Shown here: positions 1,117-54,926 of the stretch, in pieces
Position numbering within the stretch: the first letter of the stretch is position 1
How the letters are laid out: each line of letters starts with the position of its first letter
IMG/VR virus record: IMGVR_UViG_3300033144_007170
Coordinates: 29,557 to 93,556 of that record
Length of the DNA stretch: 64,000 bases
Strand: one strand, 5' to 3'
Source: a virus
Notes under the pieces: model-generated
Seen by the model: the letters and a program-made list of their open reading frames with translations, nothing else
What the model was told of the DNA's origin: nothing
Database searches by the model: none
Made by a program: the position numbers and the translations under genes

Positions 1117-2202
1117 TTACCCCCTATTTAAAATCAAAGATTTTGCCTTATCTATTATTTGTTTTTGGAGAGAATAATATACTTTTTCATCCGCTCTAAA
1201 AAGAGATAGAATATCGGATTTAGTATACTCAGTTCCTTTATAGGAATATTTTTTCTTACTCCCGTTAGATATAAAATCAAATTGTATAGCTTTGCTTAAT
1301 ACAGTCTCCCAATCCATTACAGTACCTCTTCTGAACTCGTGTTCATTTGAAGTAACTACTGTAAATTCCGCCGCCCCTGCCAAAACCAAAAGTTTCTTCT
1401 TACTGGCAGCGCTTCCCAGAGATACACTAATTTTTGTATGTTCAGGGAGTCCGGTAGAATCTATAAGTTTAACTGCCCTTCTCCCAGTTCTTCCTGATAA
1501 TGTAAAATCATGTTTACTCGCATTACCACCTGGAGCTTCTTCGGAAGGCTGCCCAAACTTAGCAGGTTTTGCTCTTAATTGGTTTAACATTAAAACAGCC
1601 ACCCTATGCCCAATTTTTCTTTCCTTCATTAATAGGGTTTTGCCTTTTCTTATCATATAGGAAACAAGACGGGCTTGGGTCATAACATAATTATCTTCAG
1701 CACTTCCCGCCATTTCTGCGTTTGGAGTCAGGTCTGCAATACTATCTAAGATTATAAGTCCTACATCCTCCGCCCGTATTGCAGAATGATAAATATCTAC
1801 ATACTCTTCCCCTGTAAGACCGTAAACTATATCTGTGTCTTCCGGAACTCCTATATCCTCTGCCCAACTCCAATCAAATGACCCTTCTGCGTCAATAAAT
1901 AAAGTCTTTAATTTTAAAGATCTTTCCTTACACGTACAGTCCCACTCATAGTTATAACACCTGTGACAGAGCAAATTGGACTGTATAATCATCTTTTGTG
2001 CTATATAGGTCTTCGAGCTTGACGGCGGCCCCCAATAGGAAGAAGTGGACCCTACAGGCGCCCCGCCCCCTATACAAAAATCAAGAGCAAAAATTCCGGT
2101 AGGTATCCTTGGAAAATCTCTTGGAGCAGAATTTGCTTTGAGAAAAGTACCTTTTCCGTATTTCTCTTCCCCTGCTTTAATAACATTAGATAATTTAGCC
2201 AC
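1117..2202 (-). CDS. recA: RecA/UvsX-type recombinase
   Basis: Strand-exchange ATPase that coats single-stranded DNA in recombination-dependent replication and repair. Seen: Walker A GPPSSSKT at residues 58-65, Walker B LIILD at about 149-153, and an L2-type segment NQLRAKPAKFG...PGGNASK at about 207-230 that is typical of RecA. Two oddities: the glycine before the Walker A lysine is replaced by Ser (T4 UvsX also departs here), and a Cys-rich insert (Cys79, 82, 89, 91) sits between the Walker A helix and the next strand. The start is GTG; it overlaps a small frameshifted frame upstream. The coding sequence contains one copy of the dispersed TGAACACGAGTTCA motif. Confidence 0.93.
   Translation of the reverse strand: MAKLSNVIKAGEEKYGKGTFLKANSAPRDFPRIPTGIFALDFCIGGGAPVGSTSSYWGPPSSSKTYIAQKMIIQSNLLCHRCYNYEWDCTCKERSLKLKTLFIDAEGSFDWSWAEDIGVPEDTDIVYGLTGEEYVDIYHSAIRAEDVGLIILDSIADLTPNAEMAGSAEDNYVMTQARLVSYMIRKGKTLLMKERKIGHRVAVLMLNQLRAKPAKFGQPSEEAPGGNASKHDFTLSGRTGRRAVKLIDSTGLPEHTKISVSLGSAASKKKLLVLAGAAEFTVVTSNEHEFRRGTVMDWETVLSKAIQFDFISNGSKKKYSYKGTEYTKSDILSLFRADEKVYYSLQKQIIDKAKSLILNRG
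1332..1345. repeat. TGAAC-N4-GTTCA dispersed motif, copy 1 (inside recA)
   Basis: The plus strand reads TGAACTCGTGTTCA. This exact 14-mer (or its complement) recurs at 5525, 12195 and 37666. Here it encodes the EHEF residues of RecA. Possible role: operator or stoperator-like protein-binding site; see findings. Confidence 0.8.
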
Positions 2203-2679: not shown

Positions 2680-3045
2680 TTATTTTCCCTCTATTTCAAT
2701 TCCTAATATTTCCGCTGCTCCCCTTAATTGATATAGAGTAAACCTCCCGCTATTACCTGAATAATCGAATGTTTTTTGGAAAGCTTCTCTATAGACTACA
2801 GCTTTTTTCTCCTCTTCCCATACTTGACGATTTTCATATAAGGCATAGTTAGAACTGTAATCTGTCTTTTCTCTCCAAGTATCAATATAAAATTGTAGCT
2901 CAAAATAGGAATCGACTTTTTCTTTCGTAGAAAAATATTTTCTACCCACTTTAACGACAATACAATTTCGGGGTTCCTTGGCATTTCTTACATTAATGCC
3001 AGCATTAACAAGAAATAATACATCCCCCTTTTTTGGTTTTCTCAT
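2680..3045 (-). CDS. hypothetical protein, 121 aa, beta-rich N-terminus
   Basis: Unknown. The first 80 residues look like a beta barrel: a KKGD turn, LFLVN, a VVKVGRKYF strand, then F-Y-DTWREKT-Y. A helical C-terminal segment follows. Similar small proteins with the xVGRKYF/DTWREKT pattern are, in my knowledge, common but uncharacterised in phages and bacteria. Spacing to both neighbours is tight (operon). Confidence 0.6.
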   Translation of the reverse strand: MRKPKKGDVLFLVNAGINVRNAKEPRNCIVVKVGRKYFSTKEKVDSYFELQFYIDTWREKTDYSSNYALYENRQVWEEEKKAVVYREAFQKTFDYSGNSGRFTLYQLRGAAEILGIEIEGK

Positions 3046-3056
3046 AATCCTTTACC

Positions 3057-3380
3057 CTATACTACTTTATTTGCACGGCCCAATTCGGATAATTTCTTAT
3101 CCATTTTATTATCCATCCATCCTGCAACTTGTTGCTCTACGTTATCTATTTCTTCTACATAACAAGGAATTTTAGCCGTAATATCCAACCGAATAAACTC
3201 AAAATTCCCCATATTTTTTGTAATTCCCATACTTCCGCCAATATATGCGGGATCTGTCTCAAATTTTCTGACTAATATAGTTTCCTCTTCAGAATAATCT
3301 TCTAATACTTTATCCAATCTTGTTCTTCGTACTGTAATTAATGCTTTTCCTTCTAAAATCTTATTCTCATTTTCTTTCAT
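3057..3380 (-). CDS. hypothetical protein, 107 aa
   Basis: Unknown acidic/basic mixed protein. It has an MDNKMDKKLSE helix near the C-terminus and a beta-like middle (FEFIRLDITAKIPCYVEE). It is the first gene after the tmRNA gene in the direction of transcription, with a purine-rich ribosome binding site (AAAGGAACTGAG) before the ATG. No domain recognised. Confidence 0.55.
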   Translation of the reverse strand: MKENENKILEGKALITVRRTRLDKVLEDYSEEETILVRKFETDPAYIGGSMGITKNMGNFEFIRLDITAKIPCYVEEIDNVEQQVAGWMDNKMDKKLSELGRANKVV

Positions 3381-3404
3381 ATCTCAGTTCCTTTTTTTGT
3401 ATGT

Positions 3405-3750
3405 GTCAGGGAGCAGGACTCGAACCTGCACGAGATACTGCCCTCCGCGGACAGCCTCTCTTTTACACTGTAGTTTTGCAATATTTTTTATGCTTTTTCA
3501 CTGATTAGGCTACTTCGGCATATCAATATTGGGGCCTCTTACGGCCCCTCCTAGACTCAAGTAATCAACTCTATATCCTTCGCAGCAATGTACTTATTGC
3601 GTATACCAATAACAAATTGAATCGAAAACTCGTAATGTATCCGTTTAGCAGCCTAAGATACGTCTGTTTTCGCTCGTTATAGTTACTGCTCCTATTACTC
3701 TTAAAGGGAATTGTGACCCCAACTCAATTTATTAATTCCGCCATCCCCGA
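3405..3750 (-). ncRNA. ssrA: transfer-messenger RNA (tmRNA), compact phage form
   Basis: Role: rescues stalled ribosomes and tags the nascent peptide, together with host SmpB. Seen on the minus strand: the 5' end TCGGGGA (3744-3750) pairs with TCCCTGA (3406-3412) over 7 bp. The third pair is G:U, the alanine identity element. A canonical T arm (GCAGG-TTCGAGT-CCTGC, 3413-3429) adjoins the 3' strand. In between is a tag-like frame at 3645-3689 in a tmRNA-like context (ATAGGA then resume codon GCA), reading AVTITSENRRILGC-stop. CGAAAAC (3666-3672) pairs with GTTTTCG (3623-3629), placing the stop in a loop as in tmRNA helix 5. A GGGGCC/GGCCCC hairpin lies at 3531-3548. Total 346 nt, the usual tmRNA size. 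Weak points: the D-loop GGxTTCGAC consensus is poor, the tag ends LGC rather than LAA, and CCA is not encoded. Confidence 0.7.
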
Positions 3751-3754
3751 CATA

Positions 3755-4414
3755 TTAAAATTTTGCTCTAAGCTGTACTGTTTTTTTATCCGCTCTCAAT
3801 GCTGTCTTCTCCATCCACTTCATAGCCTGCACTAAACTCGCATCCGAAGTCGCTTTCATAGCAACTTCTGGTTTTTCCCAAAAACAAAATAATACTGCCT
3901 GCATACGGTATGGAGTTGTATACTGACGATGATACTCGGAAGCTCTTTGTAATAATCTTAATTGATCTTTAGTATACATTCTCCAGCGCCCCACTGCTTT
4001 GTAAGATGCTTCGGGAACTAATCCGTTTCTGATAAGGTCTCTAAAATAAGATATTGAAATCCCCATTGCATCGGCGGCATACCGAATACTGTACAGTCTT
4101 TGTCCTTTTTTCGTCCGTACAATAGTACGGTTGCTCTTTCCGACGTTTACTTTATTTCTATGGTACCACTCTGTTGACTTTTTTCTGTGGTATTCTCGAA
4201 CCTCCTCCGATTCATTATATCGTTTTGCCTTTTGTACTTTTATTCGTTCCTTGTTGGTTTGATAATATTCAGAATGATAGGAACTCCTGTCAGAAAGACA
4301 TTTTTTATCATTATCTAATTTTATTGAGGGCCGGAGAGAATGACGTATTTTTTTCGGCGGTATTATCTCCATATTCGATTGTTGACTTGATGCAGTTGTG
4401 ACTTCTTTTTCCAT
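3755..4414 (-). CDS. DNA-binding protein with C-terminal HTH
   Basis: Start set at the ATG at 4414 (AAAGG lies 10 bases upstream); an in-frame ATG at 4423 sits too close to the site. The first 90 residues are polar and low in hydrophobics, with repeated YHxxY/YxxNKE motifs like those seen near HNH/NUMOD-type DNA-binding segments. Residues about 105-150 (YSIRYAADAMGISISYFRDLIRNG) fit a MerR/excisionase-type winged HTH that grips one DNA site. The rest is helical. It stops 5 bases before the tmRNA. Likely a regulator or DNA-recognition subunit; the target is unknown. Confidence 0.6.
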   Translation of the reverse strand: MEKEVTTASSQQSNMEIIPPKKIRHSLRPSIKLDNDKKCLSDRSSYHSEYYQTNKERIKVQKAKRYNESEEVREYHRKKSTEWYHRNKVNVGKSNRTIVRTKKGQRLYSIRYAADAMGISISYFRDLIRNGLVPEASYKAVGRWRMYTKDQLRLLQRASEYHRQYTTPYRMQAVLFCFWEKPEVAMKATSDASLVQAMKWMEKTALRADKKTVQLRAKF

Positions 4415-4427
4415 TATATCCATACCT

Positions 4428-5774
4428 TTATGCTATAATTAATTCCCCTTTTACATCAGAATGTCGATACTCCGACATTCTGCCACGATACCAATTTTGA
4501 CATTCGTTAATATCATTATCTACCAAATCTATAATAACAGGACGTTTCTTACCTTTATATAATCTTGAAATTCTTCCTATGGATTGACGTACTCTTGATT
4601 GAGGCGTAGCAAATACTAATCCGGCTAAATCTGGAACATCCATACCTGTAGAAAACATGCCGAATGTAGCGTAGATTATTCCACAGGTTTCAAGGATATC
4701 TCGTTTTTCCTCTTTTGTAGTTTTACTTATAAATAATCCCGGTTTATGTGCAGGATGTGTTTTATTTAACATATATTTTAATTGTTCTATTCTATCTGAC
4801 AAAACCAATACCCTCCTACCAGATAGAGCTAATTTTATAATTAAAGAAACTAAAATATCACTCCGATCTGTGTCTTCAGCCAAAGCACTTATAATAACTC
4901 CCCTTTTTCGTACCTTAGCTAATTGATATGTCCAACTTGGAATAAATCTGTTCGCCCCTTTATATCCGATAACTATAATTTTAGGTCTATTCTCTTCTTC
5001 TCTATCCGATTCTAAAGAAATTAGCTTTTCTCCAAGATGAAGACGAAAAACTATATCCATCCCATCAGGTCTATCTAAGGTTCCGGAAGCTCCTATCCGA
5101 TACTTAGCAGAAAACATTGAAACTGCTTTACTGAATTGCTCAGCCCCAGTCCTATGTAATTCATCGTATACAATTACACCGAAATGTTTCTTAAAATCTT
5201 CTCCGTATTTATCTTTACACACAGACTGGATAGTCGCTAATGTTATTGGTTTATCTTCATAATCTATTATATCGGCTTGTACATGCCCGATATCTTGTTT
5301 ACAGTGTTTAGTATGCTCTACTATCATATCCTTCCATTGCTCCAGAAGGCTGGTAGTAGGAACTACCACAAGAACATTCATCCCTATATGCTCAAGGAAT
5401 TTAAGAAGCATGACCGTCTTCCCGCTTCCTGTGCGTGCTTTTAGAATAAATCCAGTTTTCCCAATTGCTACAGAATCCATAAATTCTTGGTATAGCGGCA
5501 GTTGATTATCCCTAAGCTGAGAAATGAACTCGTGTTCAGAAAAAACGCCCTCGGAGATATCTATCTTTAGGTCTTCTATTTGAGCACAATCTACTCCATA
5601 ATACCGAGGTATGCCGAAATAGCCCTTCTTGCTTTCATCATACATAGGAACAGAAGCTAAATCTTCATACTTCGGCCTTGCTGTTAATTTAGCTCTTAGC
5701 TTTTTTATCGGGGCCTGCAATTCATCTATAGAAAGAAATAAATGGGTCCCCAATATTCCTTTTGTATAACTCAT
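4428..5774 (-). CDS. superfamily 2 DNA helicase, UvsW/XPB-like
   Basis: ATP-dependent helicase or branch-migration enzyme. Seen: a 100-residue N-terminal domain, Walker A ARTGSGKT (113-120), motif Ia VVPTTSL, DELH box (204-207), motif III-like SGT, and in the second RecA-like domain motif VI QSIGRISR near residue 400. Length (448 aa) is close to T4 UvsW-type helicases, which resolve recombination intermediates and R-loops. Its neighbours (SSB, RecA, nuclease) agree with that role. The coding sequence carries one exact copy of the TGAACACGAGTTCA motif. Confidence 0.88.
   Translation of the reverse strand: MSYTKGILGTHLFLSIDELQAPIKKLRAKLTARPKYEDLASVPMYDESKKGYFGIPRYYGVDCAQIEDLKIDISEGVFSEHEFISQLRDNQLPLYQEFMDSVAIGKTGFILKARTGSGKTVMLLKFLEHIGMNVLVVVPTTSLLEQWKDMIVEHTKHCKQDIGHVQADIIDYEDKPITLATIQSVCKDKYGEDFKKHFGVIVYDELHRTGAEQFSKAVSMFSAKYRIGASGTLDRPDGMDIVFRLHLGEKLISLESDREEENRPKIIVIGYKGANRFIPSWTYQLAKVRKRGVIISALAEDTDRSDILVSLIIKLALSGRRVLVLSDRIEQLKYMLNKTHPAHKPGLFISKTTKEEKRDILETCGIIYATFGMFSTGMDVPDLAGLVFATPQSRVRQSIGRISRLYKGKKRPVIIDLVDNDINECQNWYRGRMSEYRHSDVKGELIIA
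5525..5538. repeat. TGAAC-N4-GTTCA dispersed motif, copy 2 (inside helicase gene)
   Basis: Plus strand TGAACTCGTGTTCA, identical to the copies at 1332 and 12195 and in the same orientation. It encodes SEHEF in the helicase. Confidence 0.8.
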
Positions 5775-7590: not shown

Positions 7591-7721
7591 TGTGCGCCAC
7601 CCTGCCAAAAAGTGATGGAATCGAACCACCGTAAAACGTAATAATTTCGGTAATGATCACTCCCGCCATTATCCAATAGCTTATTTCCTCAATATACGGG
7701 ATCGAACCGTAATGGCGCACA
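7591..7721 (-). ncRNA. structured RNA with two tRNA-type T-arm hairpins
   Basis: On the minus strand the segment is closed by a 9-bp inverted repeat (TGTGCGCCA/TGGCGCACA). Inside are two hairpins with perfect T-arm form: TACGG-TTCGATC-CCGTA and GGTGG-TTCGATT-CCATC. Between them are GCTA-TTGGATAA-TGGC, which looks like a tRNA D arm, and GGATAATG...CATTACC. I could not fit a normal cloverleaf: no 7-nt anticodon loop with U33 appears, and acceptor strands do not adjoin the T arms correctly. It may be degenerate or rearranged tRNAs, or a different structured RNA. Confidence 0.35.
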
Positions 7722-7731
7722 AAGTTACAAT

Positions 7732-7764
7732 AAAATTTTTGTTATGCACTATATCAAAAATTTT
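7732..7764. repeat. 10-bp inverted repeat, AT-rich
   Basis: AAAATTTTTG and CAAAAATTTT face each other across a 13-nt loop. The stem is perfect, but it has a single G:C pair. It separates the two structured RNA candidates in this gene-free stretch. It could be a weak bidirectional terminator or a protein site. Confidence 0.4.
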
Positions 7765-7765
7765 A

Positions 7766-7849
7766 GGGGGTCTGTAGCGCAAAGGGTACATGGTGCCCCA
7801 AGCTAACCGTTTAAAGTTTCCCATGAAGTTTTAAAAAGTTCCGACCCCC
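7766..7849 (+). ncRNA. tRNA-like or other structured RNA, 84 nt
   Basis: GGGGGTC (7766-7772) pairs with GACCCCC (7843-7849), like a 7-bp acceptor stem. The following TGTA-GCGCAAAGGG-TACA resembles a D arm. GGGTAC/GTGCCC and TAGC/GCTA can form an alternative nested stem. No T-loop consensus (TTCRA) and no proper anticodon arm are present on either strand. Strand is chosen from the D-arm likeness only. It may be a decayed tRNA. Confidence 0.3.
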
Positions 7850-7853
7850 TTCT

Positions 7854-53252: not shown

Positions 53253-54926
53253 TTACCACATAGGCTTGTCAAGCTTCTTTTGTTTTTTGGGCACCTTGTG
53301 CCTTCCTTGCCGTATCCTTTTTTCTTCTGCGCTCTCGATACGTTTTTCTGGTACTATATGCTCCAAAATACATTTAGTCATAATATCAATTACCATTTCT
53401 GGAGTAATTCCGGTAAGACAATAAACTTCGGGTTTTACACAATCTGTCCATTCTTTGTCTGTTCTTCCCCTACACCCGCCACATTCGAGATCTTCGATTC
53501 TAATTGGGTATTCTATAGCATCCGATGCCGGAGAGAAAGGATGCACGCATCCGTATATTACACAAGCTGGAGTACCTACCGCCTTTGCTATATGGGCACA
53601 ACCCGAATCTATTCCTAAAAACAAACAGCATTCTTTAATCAATGCGGCGGTTTGTTTTATAGGAAGCCCTCTGCAATCTTTGCCTACCCCGGTATATTGA
53701 GTTTGGGGGTTCCCTATCTCTAAGATCTCATAGCCTTTCTTTTTGTAATGAGAAGCAACTTTAACAAATCTATCCAACTCCCACTCTTTGCTTTTCCAGG
53801 CCCGCCCCGTATGGAATACAATATGTCTCTGGTTCGGTTTTAAAAAGCGTCGGATAGGATTTACATCGTCTTCGGTTAGGTATACTTGTAATTTAGCTTT
53901 CTTTAAAGTAACATTGCATTGATTGGCCATAGTTATTATGGCATTTTTTTCCATATCAACTTCATATCTTGGAGTTAAAACAATATCATATTTTTTTAGC
54001 TTTGGCTCTCTTCTGACAATCTCATTTATACAAGGGTTCCCTGTGAGGATCCCAGGGCAATCTGTTTCATATACTATATAGGAATTGGGGTATTTATTTT
54101 TTAATGCGAACAATATGGGGGTTGTTAATAAAACATCTCCCATAGCTCCCTTTCTTCTAAAAAGAATAGTGGGTTTGTCTGCTTCTATTTTAGATTCAAT
54201 CGGGCGCTTTCCTGTTACCCATTTACTAAACATTCTGTGCCTACTGGTGTTGTTTTGTTCTGGGGCAGTATGATCTAATTGTTTTTTAGACTTACTGCCG
54301 TAGTGTTTAATAGGAAGCTTCACAGTTTTGAGCTTTAGCCCCAATTCTTTAACCCTATAAGATAAATCTGCGTCTTCCCCATAAGCTGGATTAAACTGCA
54401 TATCAAACCCCTTTAATTCCTGAAACAATTTCCACTTTCCGAATAAGCACCAACCTTCTACGTAGCTCCAATCCTCCTCAATTTTGCTACTGCCTACATG
54501 ATTAACTGTTTCTTCTGCGTAATCGGGAGCTGCTTTATGGCACATAGTTCCTACTAACCCCACATTCTCTTCTTTGCTTGCCTGCATCAAAATAGGTAGC
54601 CAATTGTATCCTTTGATTTTACAATCGTTATTAAGGAAGAGGATATACTCGCACTCAGCTAATTTCAGAGCTTGGTTATTGCCTCCGGAAAATCCTCTGT
54701 TCCTCCGGTTTCTTACTATTAAATCCCGCTCCCCAGTCAATACTTCGTCTAAATATTTTAAAGTCCCGTCTTCCGATCCTTGATCGACTACAATTAAATC
54801 ATACTTATTTCTGTCTGTAAATTTTTTTATGGAATCTATACATATTTTAGTGTAGTGTACCTGATTCCATGCAAGTATTATAATAGCTACTTTATTTTTT
54901 TTCTGCTTCATCGTCATTATATCCAT
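53253..54926 (-). CDS. bifunctional glycosyltransferase, GT2 fused to GT9
   Basis: Residues 1-235: GT2 domain with IIILAWNQVHYTKICIDSI, VVDQGSEDGT, NNDC as the DxD position, GEDADLSYR at the acceptor site. Residues 245-515: GT9 heptosyltransferase-like domain with RRKGAMGDVLLTTPIL, VFHTGRAWKSKEW and GIDSGCAHIAKAVGTPACVIYG. The fusion suggests two sequential sugar transfers, the second possibly of a heptose. C-terminal tail is basic. Rarely seen as one chain in phages. Confidence 0.8.
   Translation of the reverse strand: MDIMTMKQKKNKVAIIILAWNQVHYTKICIDSIKKFTDRNKYDLIVVDQGSEDGTLKYLDEVLTGERDLIVRNRRNRGFSGGNNQALKLAECEYILFLNNDCKIKGYNWLPILMQASKEENVGLVGTMCHKAAPDYAEETVNHVGSSKIEEDWSYVEGWCLFGKWKLFQELKGFDMQFNPAYGEDADLSYRVKELGLKLKTVKLPIKHYGSKSKKQLDHTAPEQNNTSRHRMFSKWVTGKRPIESKIEADKPTILFRRKGAMGDVLLTTPILFALKNKYPNSYIVYETDCPGILTGNPCINEIVRREPKLKKYDIVLTPRYEVDMEKNAIITMANQCNVTLKKAKLQVYLTEDDVNPIRRFLKPNQRHIVFHTGRAWKSKEWELDRFVKVASHYKKKGYEILEIGNPQTQYTGVGKDCRGLPIKQTAALIKECCLFLGIDSGCAHIAKAVGTPACVIYGCVHPFSPASDAIEYPIRIEDLECGGCRGRTDKEWTDCVKPEVYCLTGITPEMVIDIMTKCILEHIVPEKRIESAEEKRIRQGRHKVPKKQKKLDKPMW

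Follow-up and report, generated by a model that had tools for sequence, protein, structure and literature searches.

A probable structured intergenic RNA with a tmRNA-like order of parts in an unclassified bacterial virus

The virus record has a length of 93,556 bases and belongs to an unclassified bacterial virus. The window, the whole stretch of DNA that was analysed, comprises 64,000 nucleotides and corresponds to positions 29557-93556 of this record. The genes of the window are encoded on the minus strand. The candidate RNA (3405-3750) lies in a gap between two ORFs, near genes encoding a helicase and a UvsX-type RecA (Table 1). A promoter and terminator scan predicted neither at 3405-3750. 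A small protein (2680-3045, minus strand), encoded two genes downstream of 3405-3750, matches the Phage ProQ C-terminal-like domain (PF24203, E 2.5e-14) and by this match is possibly an RNA-binding relative. No SmpB gene was found in the phage record, which is expected if the SmpB of the host is used. A normal tRNA-Ile gene with anticodon UAU was present on the minus strand of the same phage record (G000:C1:9854-9928).

Table 1. Features at and around the candidate RNA, and permuted tmRNAs of UvsX relatives. Positions refer to the window unless another sequence is named.
Feature	Position	Strand	Remarks
UvsX-type RecA gene	1117-2202		Near candidate RNA
ORF, 107 aa, unknown	3057-3380		Adjoins gap, other side
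Gap with candidate RNA	3381-3754	minus	Longest stretch of window free of minus-strand ORFs of at least 40 aa
Terminal (acceptor-like) helix, 3' strand UCCCUGACA	3404-3412	minus	9 bp with 3744-3752
T arm GCAGG-UUCGAGU-CCUGC	3413-3429	minus	Perfect, canonical; directly before 3' closure strand
Hairpin GAGAGGCUGUCC/GGGCAGUAUCUC	3432-3460	minus	11 bp, directly 5' of T arm; pair probability 0.98
Long-range helix-5-like helix, 3' strand AGUAGCCUAA	3505-3514	minus	From fold
Hairpin GGGGCC-GUAAGA-GGCCCC	3531-3548	minus	Inside long-range helix; pair probability 1.0
Candidate tag frame AVTITSENRRILGC-stop	3645-3689	minus	ARAGORN at 85% threshold
Long-range helix-5-like helix, 5' strand UUAGGCUGCU	3647-3656	minus	Last tag codons; pair probability 0.94
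Resume-codon-like context AAUAGGAGCA	3687-3696	minus	8/10 bases as in E. coli ssrA AAUAGUCGCA
Terminal (acceptor-like) helix, 5' strand UGUCGGGGA	3744-3752	minus	Pairs with 3404-3412
ORF, weak match to transcriptional regulator	3755-4423		Adjoins gap
Helicase gene	4428-5774		Near candidate RNA
Permuted tmRNA, tag ANDTSFDVRLAA	phage SM1 (L094), 54071-54370		
Permuted tmRNA, tag ANDNVQADAIAIAA	G010 C1:8737-9187 (L100/L104)	minus	

Two tandem, slightly overlapping tRNA-like genes were located between two genes at 7606-7759 on the minus strand and reached 97 and 96% of the ARAGORN threshold. Both had canonical T arms and poor anticodon arms and were unreported by the Rfam tRNA model. Both are possibly phage tRNAs that have diverged or are decaying. 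Just upstream of them was a strong hairpin-like unit, GGGGGUC...GACCCCC, of approximately 84 nt (7766-7850, minus strand), which is tRNA-sized and lacks a T loop.

The candidate stretch folded at -106.7 kcal/mol, with a z score of -4.3 against dinucleotide shuffles. Its ends are closed by a helix of 9 bp (UGUCGGGGA/UCCCUGACA) which includes one G-U pair and spans 320 nt (pair probability 0.97 over 8 bp in the fold). The initial annotation, made from the sequence alone, had described a 7-bp acceptor stem with G:U as its third pair. This register is present, with UCGGGGA (3750-3744) paired to UCCCUGA (3412-3406) and G3 (3748) opposite U (3408), but the closure has 9 bp rather than 7, so the numbering of the third pair depends on choosing the 7-bp register. 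The canonical T arm reported beside the acceptor stem was found as described. The window contains three canonical T arms, where 0.09 would be expected. Per shuffled window, a T arm closed by 9 bp at a distance of 200-450 nt was expected 0.017 times and one closed by 7 bp 0.32 times, so a 7-bp helix alone is unremarkable and the 9-bp helix is remarkable; these and the other chance tests were run on a gap already singled out by the initial annotation, and their small numbers are therefore somewhat flattering.

The candidate tag frame reads GCA GUA ACU AUA ACG AGC GAA AAC AGA CGU AUC UUA GGC UGC UAA, comprising 14 codons and the UAA stop. At 45 nt including the stop it is close to the 48-126 nt range of known tmRNA frames (PMC1168896). 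The encoded tag ends in GC (ILGC) and not in -AA. The context AAUAG-NN-GCA is common to the candidate and E. coli, and the U-A upstream of the resume codon is present. The A of the E. coli context is its most important base and decides the frame (PMC2481249); this base is kept in AAUAGGAGCA. The claim of a tag-like frame in a resume-codon-like context was upheld, the frame running from 3689 to 3645 behind this context as in E. coli. Taken alone, the likeness of the tag to E. coli tag DNA was not beyond chance.

In tmRNA, helix 5 sits at the end of the tag, and its loop contains the stop codon (PMC1168896). In the candidate a long-range helix of 10 bp (UUAGGCUGCU/AGUAGCCUAA) begins at the last sense codons, and when the downstream part was shuffled, a 10-bp helix to the tag end was reached in 2.7% of cases. 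The initial annotation had also claimed a local 7-bp helix that places the stop codon in its loop, and this was not reproduced. The only local helix of this kind was GUAUC/GAUAC, of 5 bp, and the fold preferred the 10-bp long-range helix. The 11-bp hairpin at 3432-3460 occupies the expected place of the 3' strand of tmRNA helix 2. In a simple pseudoknot scan the E. coli tmRNA control scored no better than shuffles.

ARAGORN predicted no tmRNA in the window at its default threshold, and a search for intron-bearing tRNAs at default was also negative. When the threshold was lowered to 85%, ARAGORN returned a tmRNA at exactly 3405-3750 with the tag AVTITSENRRILGC, identical to the ends and tag of the initial annotation, together with two more hits elsewhere in the window. 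Among 6000 dinucleotide shuffles of the gap searched at 85% or above, a standard-form hit was obtained in 1/6000 and a hit of any form in 4/6000. The Rfam tmRNA models (RF00023, RF04321, RF01849-51, and RF02544), which had been proposed as a check along with ARAGORN, gave no match over 551 bases, even at E<=10. The same kind of search scored E. coli ssrA at 295.8 bits. No other Rfam family matched, either at gathering or at E<=10. A clean tRNA cloverleaf had been named as grounds for discarding the tmRNA reading, and the best tRNA reading of the 3413-3429 T arm attained only 74% of the ARAGORN threshold, with no match to the Rfam tRNA model (RF00005). A group I intron in a tRNA or tmRNA (RF00028) was rejected as there was no model match, and a search for a permuted tmRNA in this genome yielded only noise. 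The 5' end GGGGAUGGCGGAAUU resembles the starts of tRNA-Leu; an origin from tRNA-Leu was rejected, as no phage match to this stretch was found. A match of the 3' end to a Microbacterium phage was also set aside, as it lies between tRNA genes and spans only the T arm and acceptor.

Several features of known tmRNAs are lacking in the candidate. Known tmRNAs have, with a single exception, G-C at pair 1; G-C at pair 2 and G-U at pair 3 are invariant, and ahead of the T stem lies a helix 2a that has a conserved GAC (PMC1168896). The candidate has U1-A72 and C2-G71 where G1-C72 and G2-C71 would be required, with G3:U in the 7-bp register. The closure extends two pairs beyond the acceptor, C occupies position 73, and CCA is not encoded. 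GGAC is absent ahead of the T stem. The D-loop, which in tmRNA is stemless and carries UUCGAC, had been called atypical, and this motif is indeed absent from UGGCGGAAUUAAUAAAUUGA. Helix 2 was not found, with 5'-3' pairing candidates of 5-6 bp, the best of which has 6 bp, two of them G-U pairs, and is in competition with the 11-bp hairpin. Helix 2 and the D-loop motif define the tRNA-like domain of tmRNA. The earlier description of the RNA as reduced does not apply to its length (346 nt compared to 363 in E. coli) and holds for the missing helix 2 and D-loop motif. As the candidate departs from the family in these respects, it cannot at present be filed as a tmRNA. The departures may be compatible with an RNA that works like a tmRNA or interferes with one.

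The candidate RNA is probably real. The analysis supports a structured, intergenic, tRNA-closed RNA with a tmRNA-like order of parts, beyond chance: acceptor, resume context, short tag, helix at the tag end, T arm, and acceptor. The tmRNA identity given in the initial annotation stood as far as this order is concerned; the label itself was not secured, with no significant model match and no relative of the element found for covariation. A very divergent or decaying tmRNA-derived RNA was given about an even chance. The main rival is an unrelated structured phage RNA of approximately 350 nt with a tRNA-like acceptor and T arm end, which would serve RNase P processing and stability, and with a fortuitous tag frame. 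This is a possible, somewhat unlikely explanation. The strong fold and the very stable hairpins would suit such an RNA, as would the lack of a tmRNA model match and of helix 2, the tag likeness within chance, and the further ARAGORN hits in the window at 85%. However, the resume context, frame length, tag-end helix, and total length are all where a tmRNA needs them, and no Rfam family of another kind matches.

It is unlikely that the element is a decayed tRNA gene, with the T arm as a tRNA relic and the remainder as unrelated spacer. The two tandem tRNA-like genes 4 kb away (7606-7759), which are near threshold and have canonical T arms, point to divergent tRNAs in the region, but the reading based on the 3413-3429 T arm reached 74% of threshold compared to 96-97% for those two. 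The 9-bp pairing of the terminal helix across 320 nt also argues against a relic, as does the failure to find an intron-bearing tRNA (default threshold) or a group I intron (Rfam). Ordinary spacer with features picked out by reading many candidates is very improbable. The window had been scanned for striking things, and ARAGORN at 85% also hits two other places in it. Against this, largely separate signals (the fold, the T arm with its closure, and the tag-end helix) coincide in the largest gene-strand gap of a compact genome.

Under the preferred reading the candidate would be a strongly diverged phage descendant of a one-piece tmRNA, the type of molecule that frees stuck ribosomes. It would be cut from a minus-strand polycistronic transcript, closed by its acceptor and T arm, and possibly charged with alanine. 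Such an RNA would enter stalled ribosomes with the SmpB of the host. Translation might then be switched to the AVTITSENRRILGC frame. As another option, part of the tRNA-like domain may have been lost, which would make the RNA a competitor of the host tmRNA. There is a small chance that the element is a working tmRNA with a new layout. A local hairpin stacked on the T arm would then take the place of helix 2, the acceptor would have 8-9 bp and C73, and the ILGC tag end may not direct proteins to ClpXP. This molecule would free ribosomes without marking phage proteins for destruction.

Among known systems, E. coli ssrA (RF00023) resembles the candidate in length, part order, G3:U70 (in the 7-bp register), T arm, AAUAG-NN-GCA, and a short frame ending at a helix. 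In contrast to ssrA, the candidate is without helix 2, the UUCGAC D-loop, clear pseudoknots, and a model match, and it has other pairs at positions 1 and 2, C73, and a tag ending in GC. Mycobacterium phage DS6A carries a TLD-only tmRNA, and inhibition of tmRNA has been shown for a similar TLD-only molecule (PMC4131195). The DS6A tmRNA is like the candidate a phage-borne departure from the standard form. It keeps the tRNA-like domain and has lost the tag, whereas the candidate has a tag-like frame and an eroded tRNA-like domain. A 74-nt tmRNA-model match of 42.6 bits with no room for a tag was observed in G023 (C1, about 2900-3110; L097 1363-1575), with another copy of a tmRNA-like 5' start ahead of it. 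This element is possibly a TLD-only tmRNA, as in DS6A.

No homologue of the element was found in the collections searched, and the DNA patterns of the T arm with acceptor and of the tag region were unmatched in IMG/VR. The nearest phage relatives in public collections had identities of 36% for UvsX and 33% for the helicase, and no related element was found near the UvsX or helicase genes of relatives. GTDB genomes gave two weak UvsX matches. Closer relatives may exist, as the collections may omit records very near the genome of the window. High-scoring permuted tmRNAs (RF04321) are present in two of the UvsX relatives, with 118.6 bits in Pseudomonas phage SM1 and 121.6 bits in contig G010, so a tmRNA gene is at home in such phages. 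These tmRNAs are not homologues of the 3405-3750 element. They share with it the setting of a tmRNA in a UvsX-related phage, but unlike the candidate they are high-scoring, have a permuted order, and encode tags ending in -AA.

Phage tmRNAs are known but uncommon. A 2025 database holds 79 unique bacteriophage tmRNA sequences (PMC11915505), and tmRNA was found in 402/18,146 phage genomes (PMC9004378). If the tmRNA-derived reading is true, a tmRNA has escaped all current models and present counts would miss divergent forms. A tag that lacks the common -AA end would be a test of ribosome rescue without proteolysis in phages.
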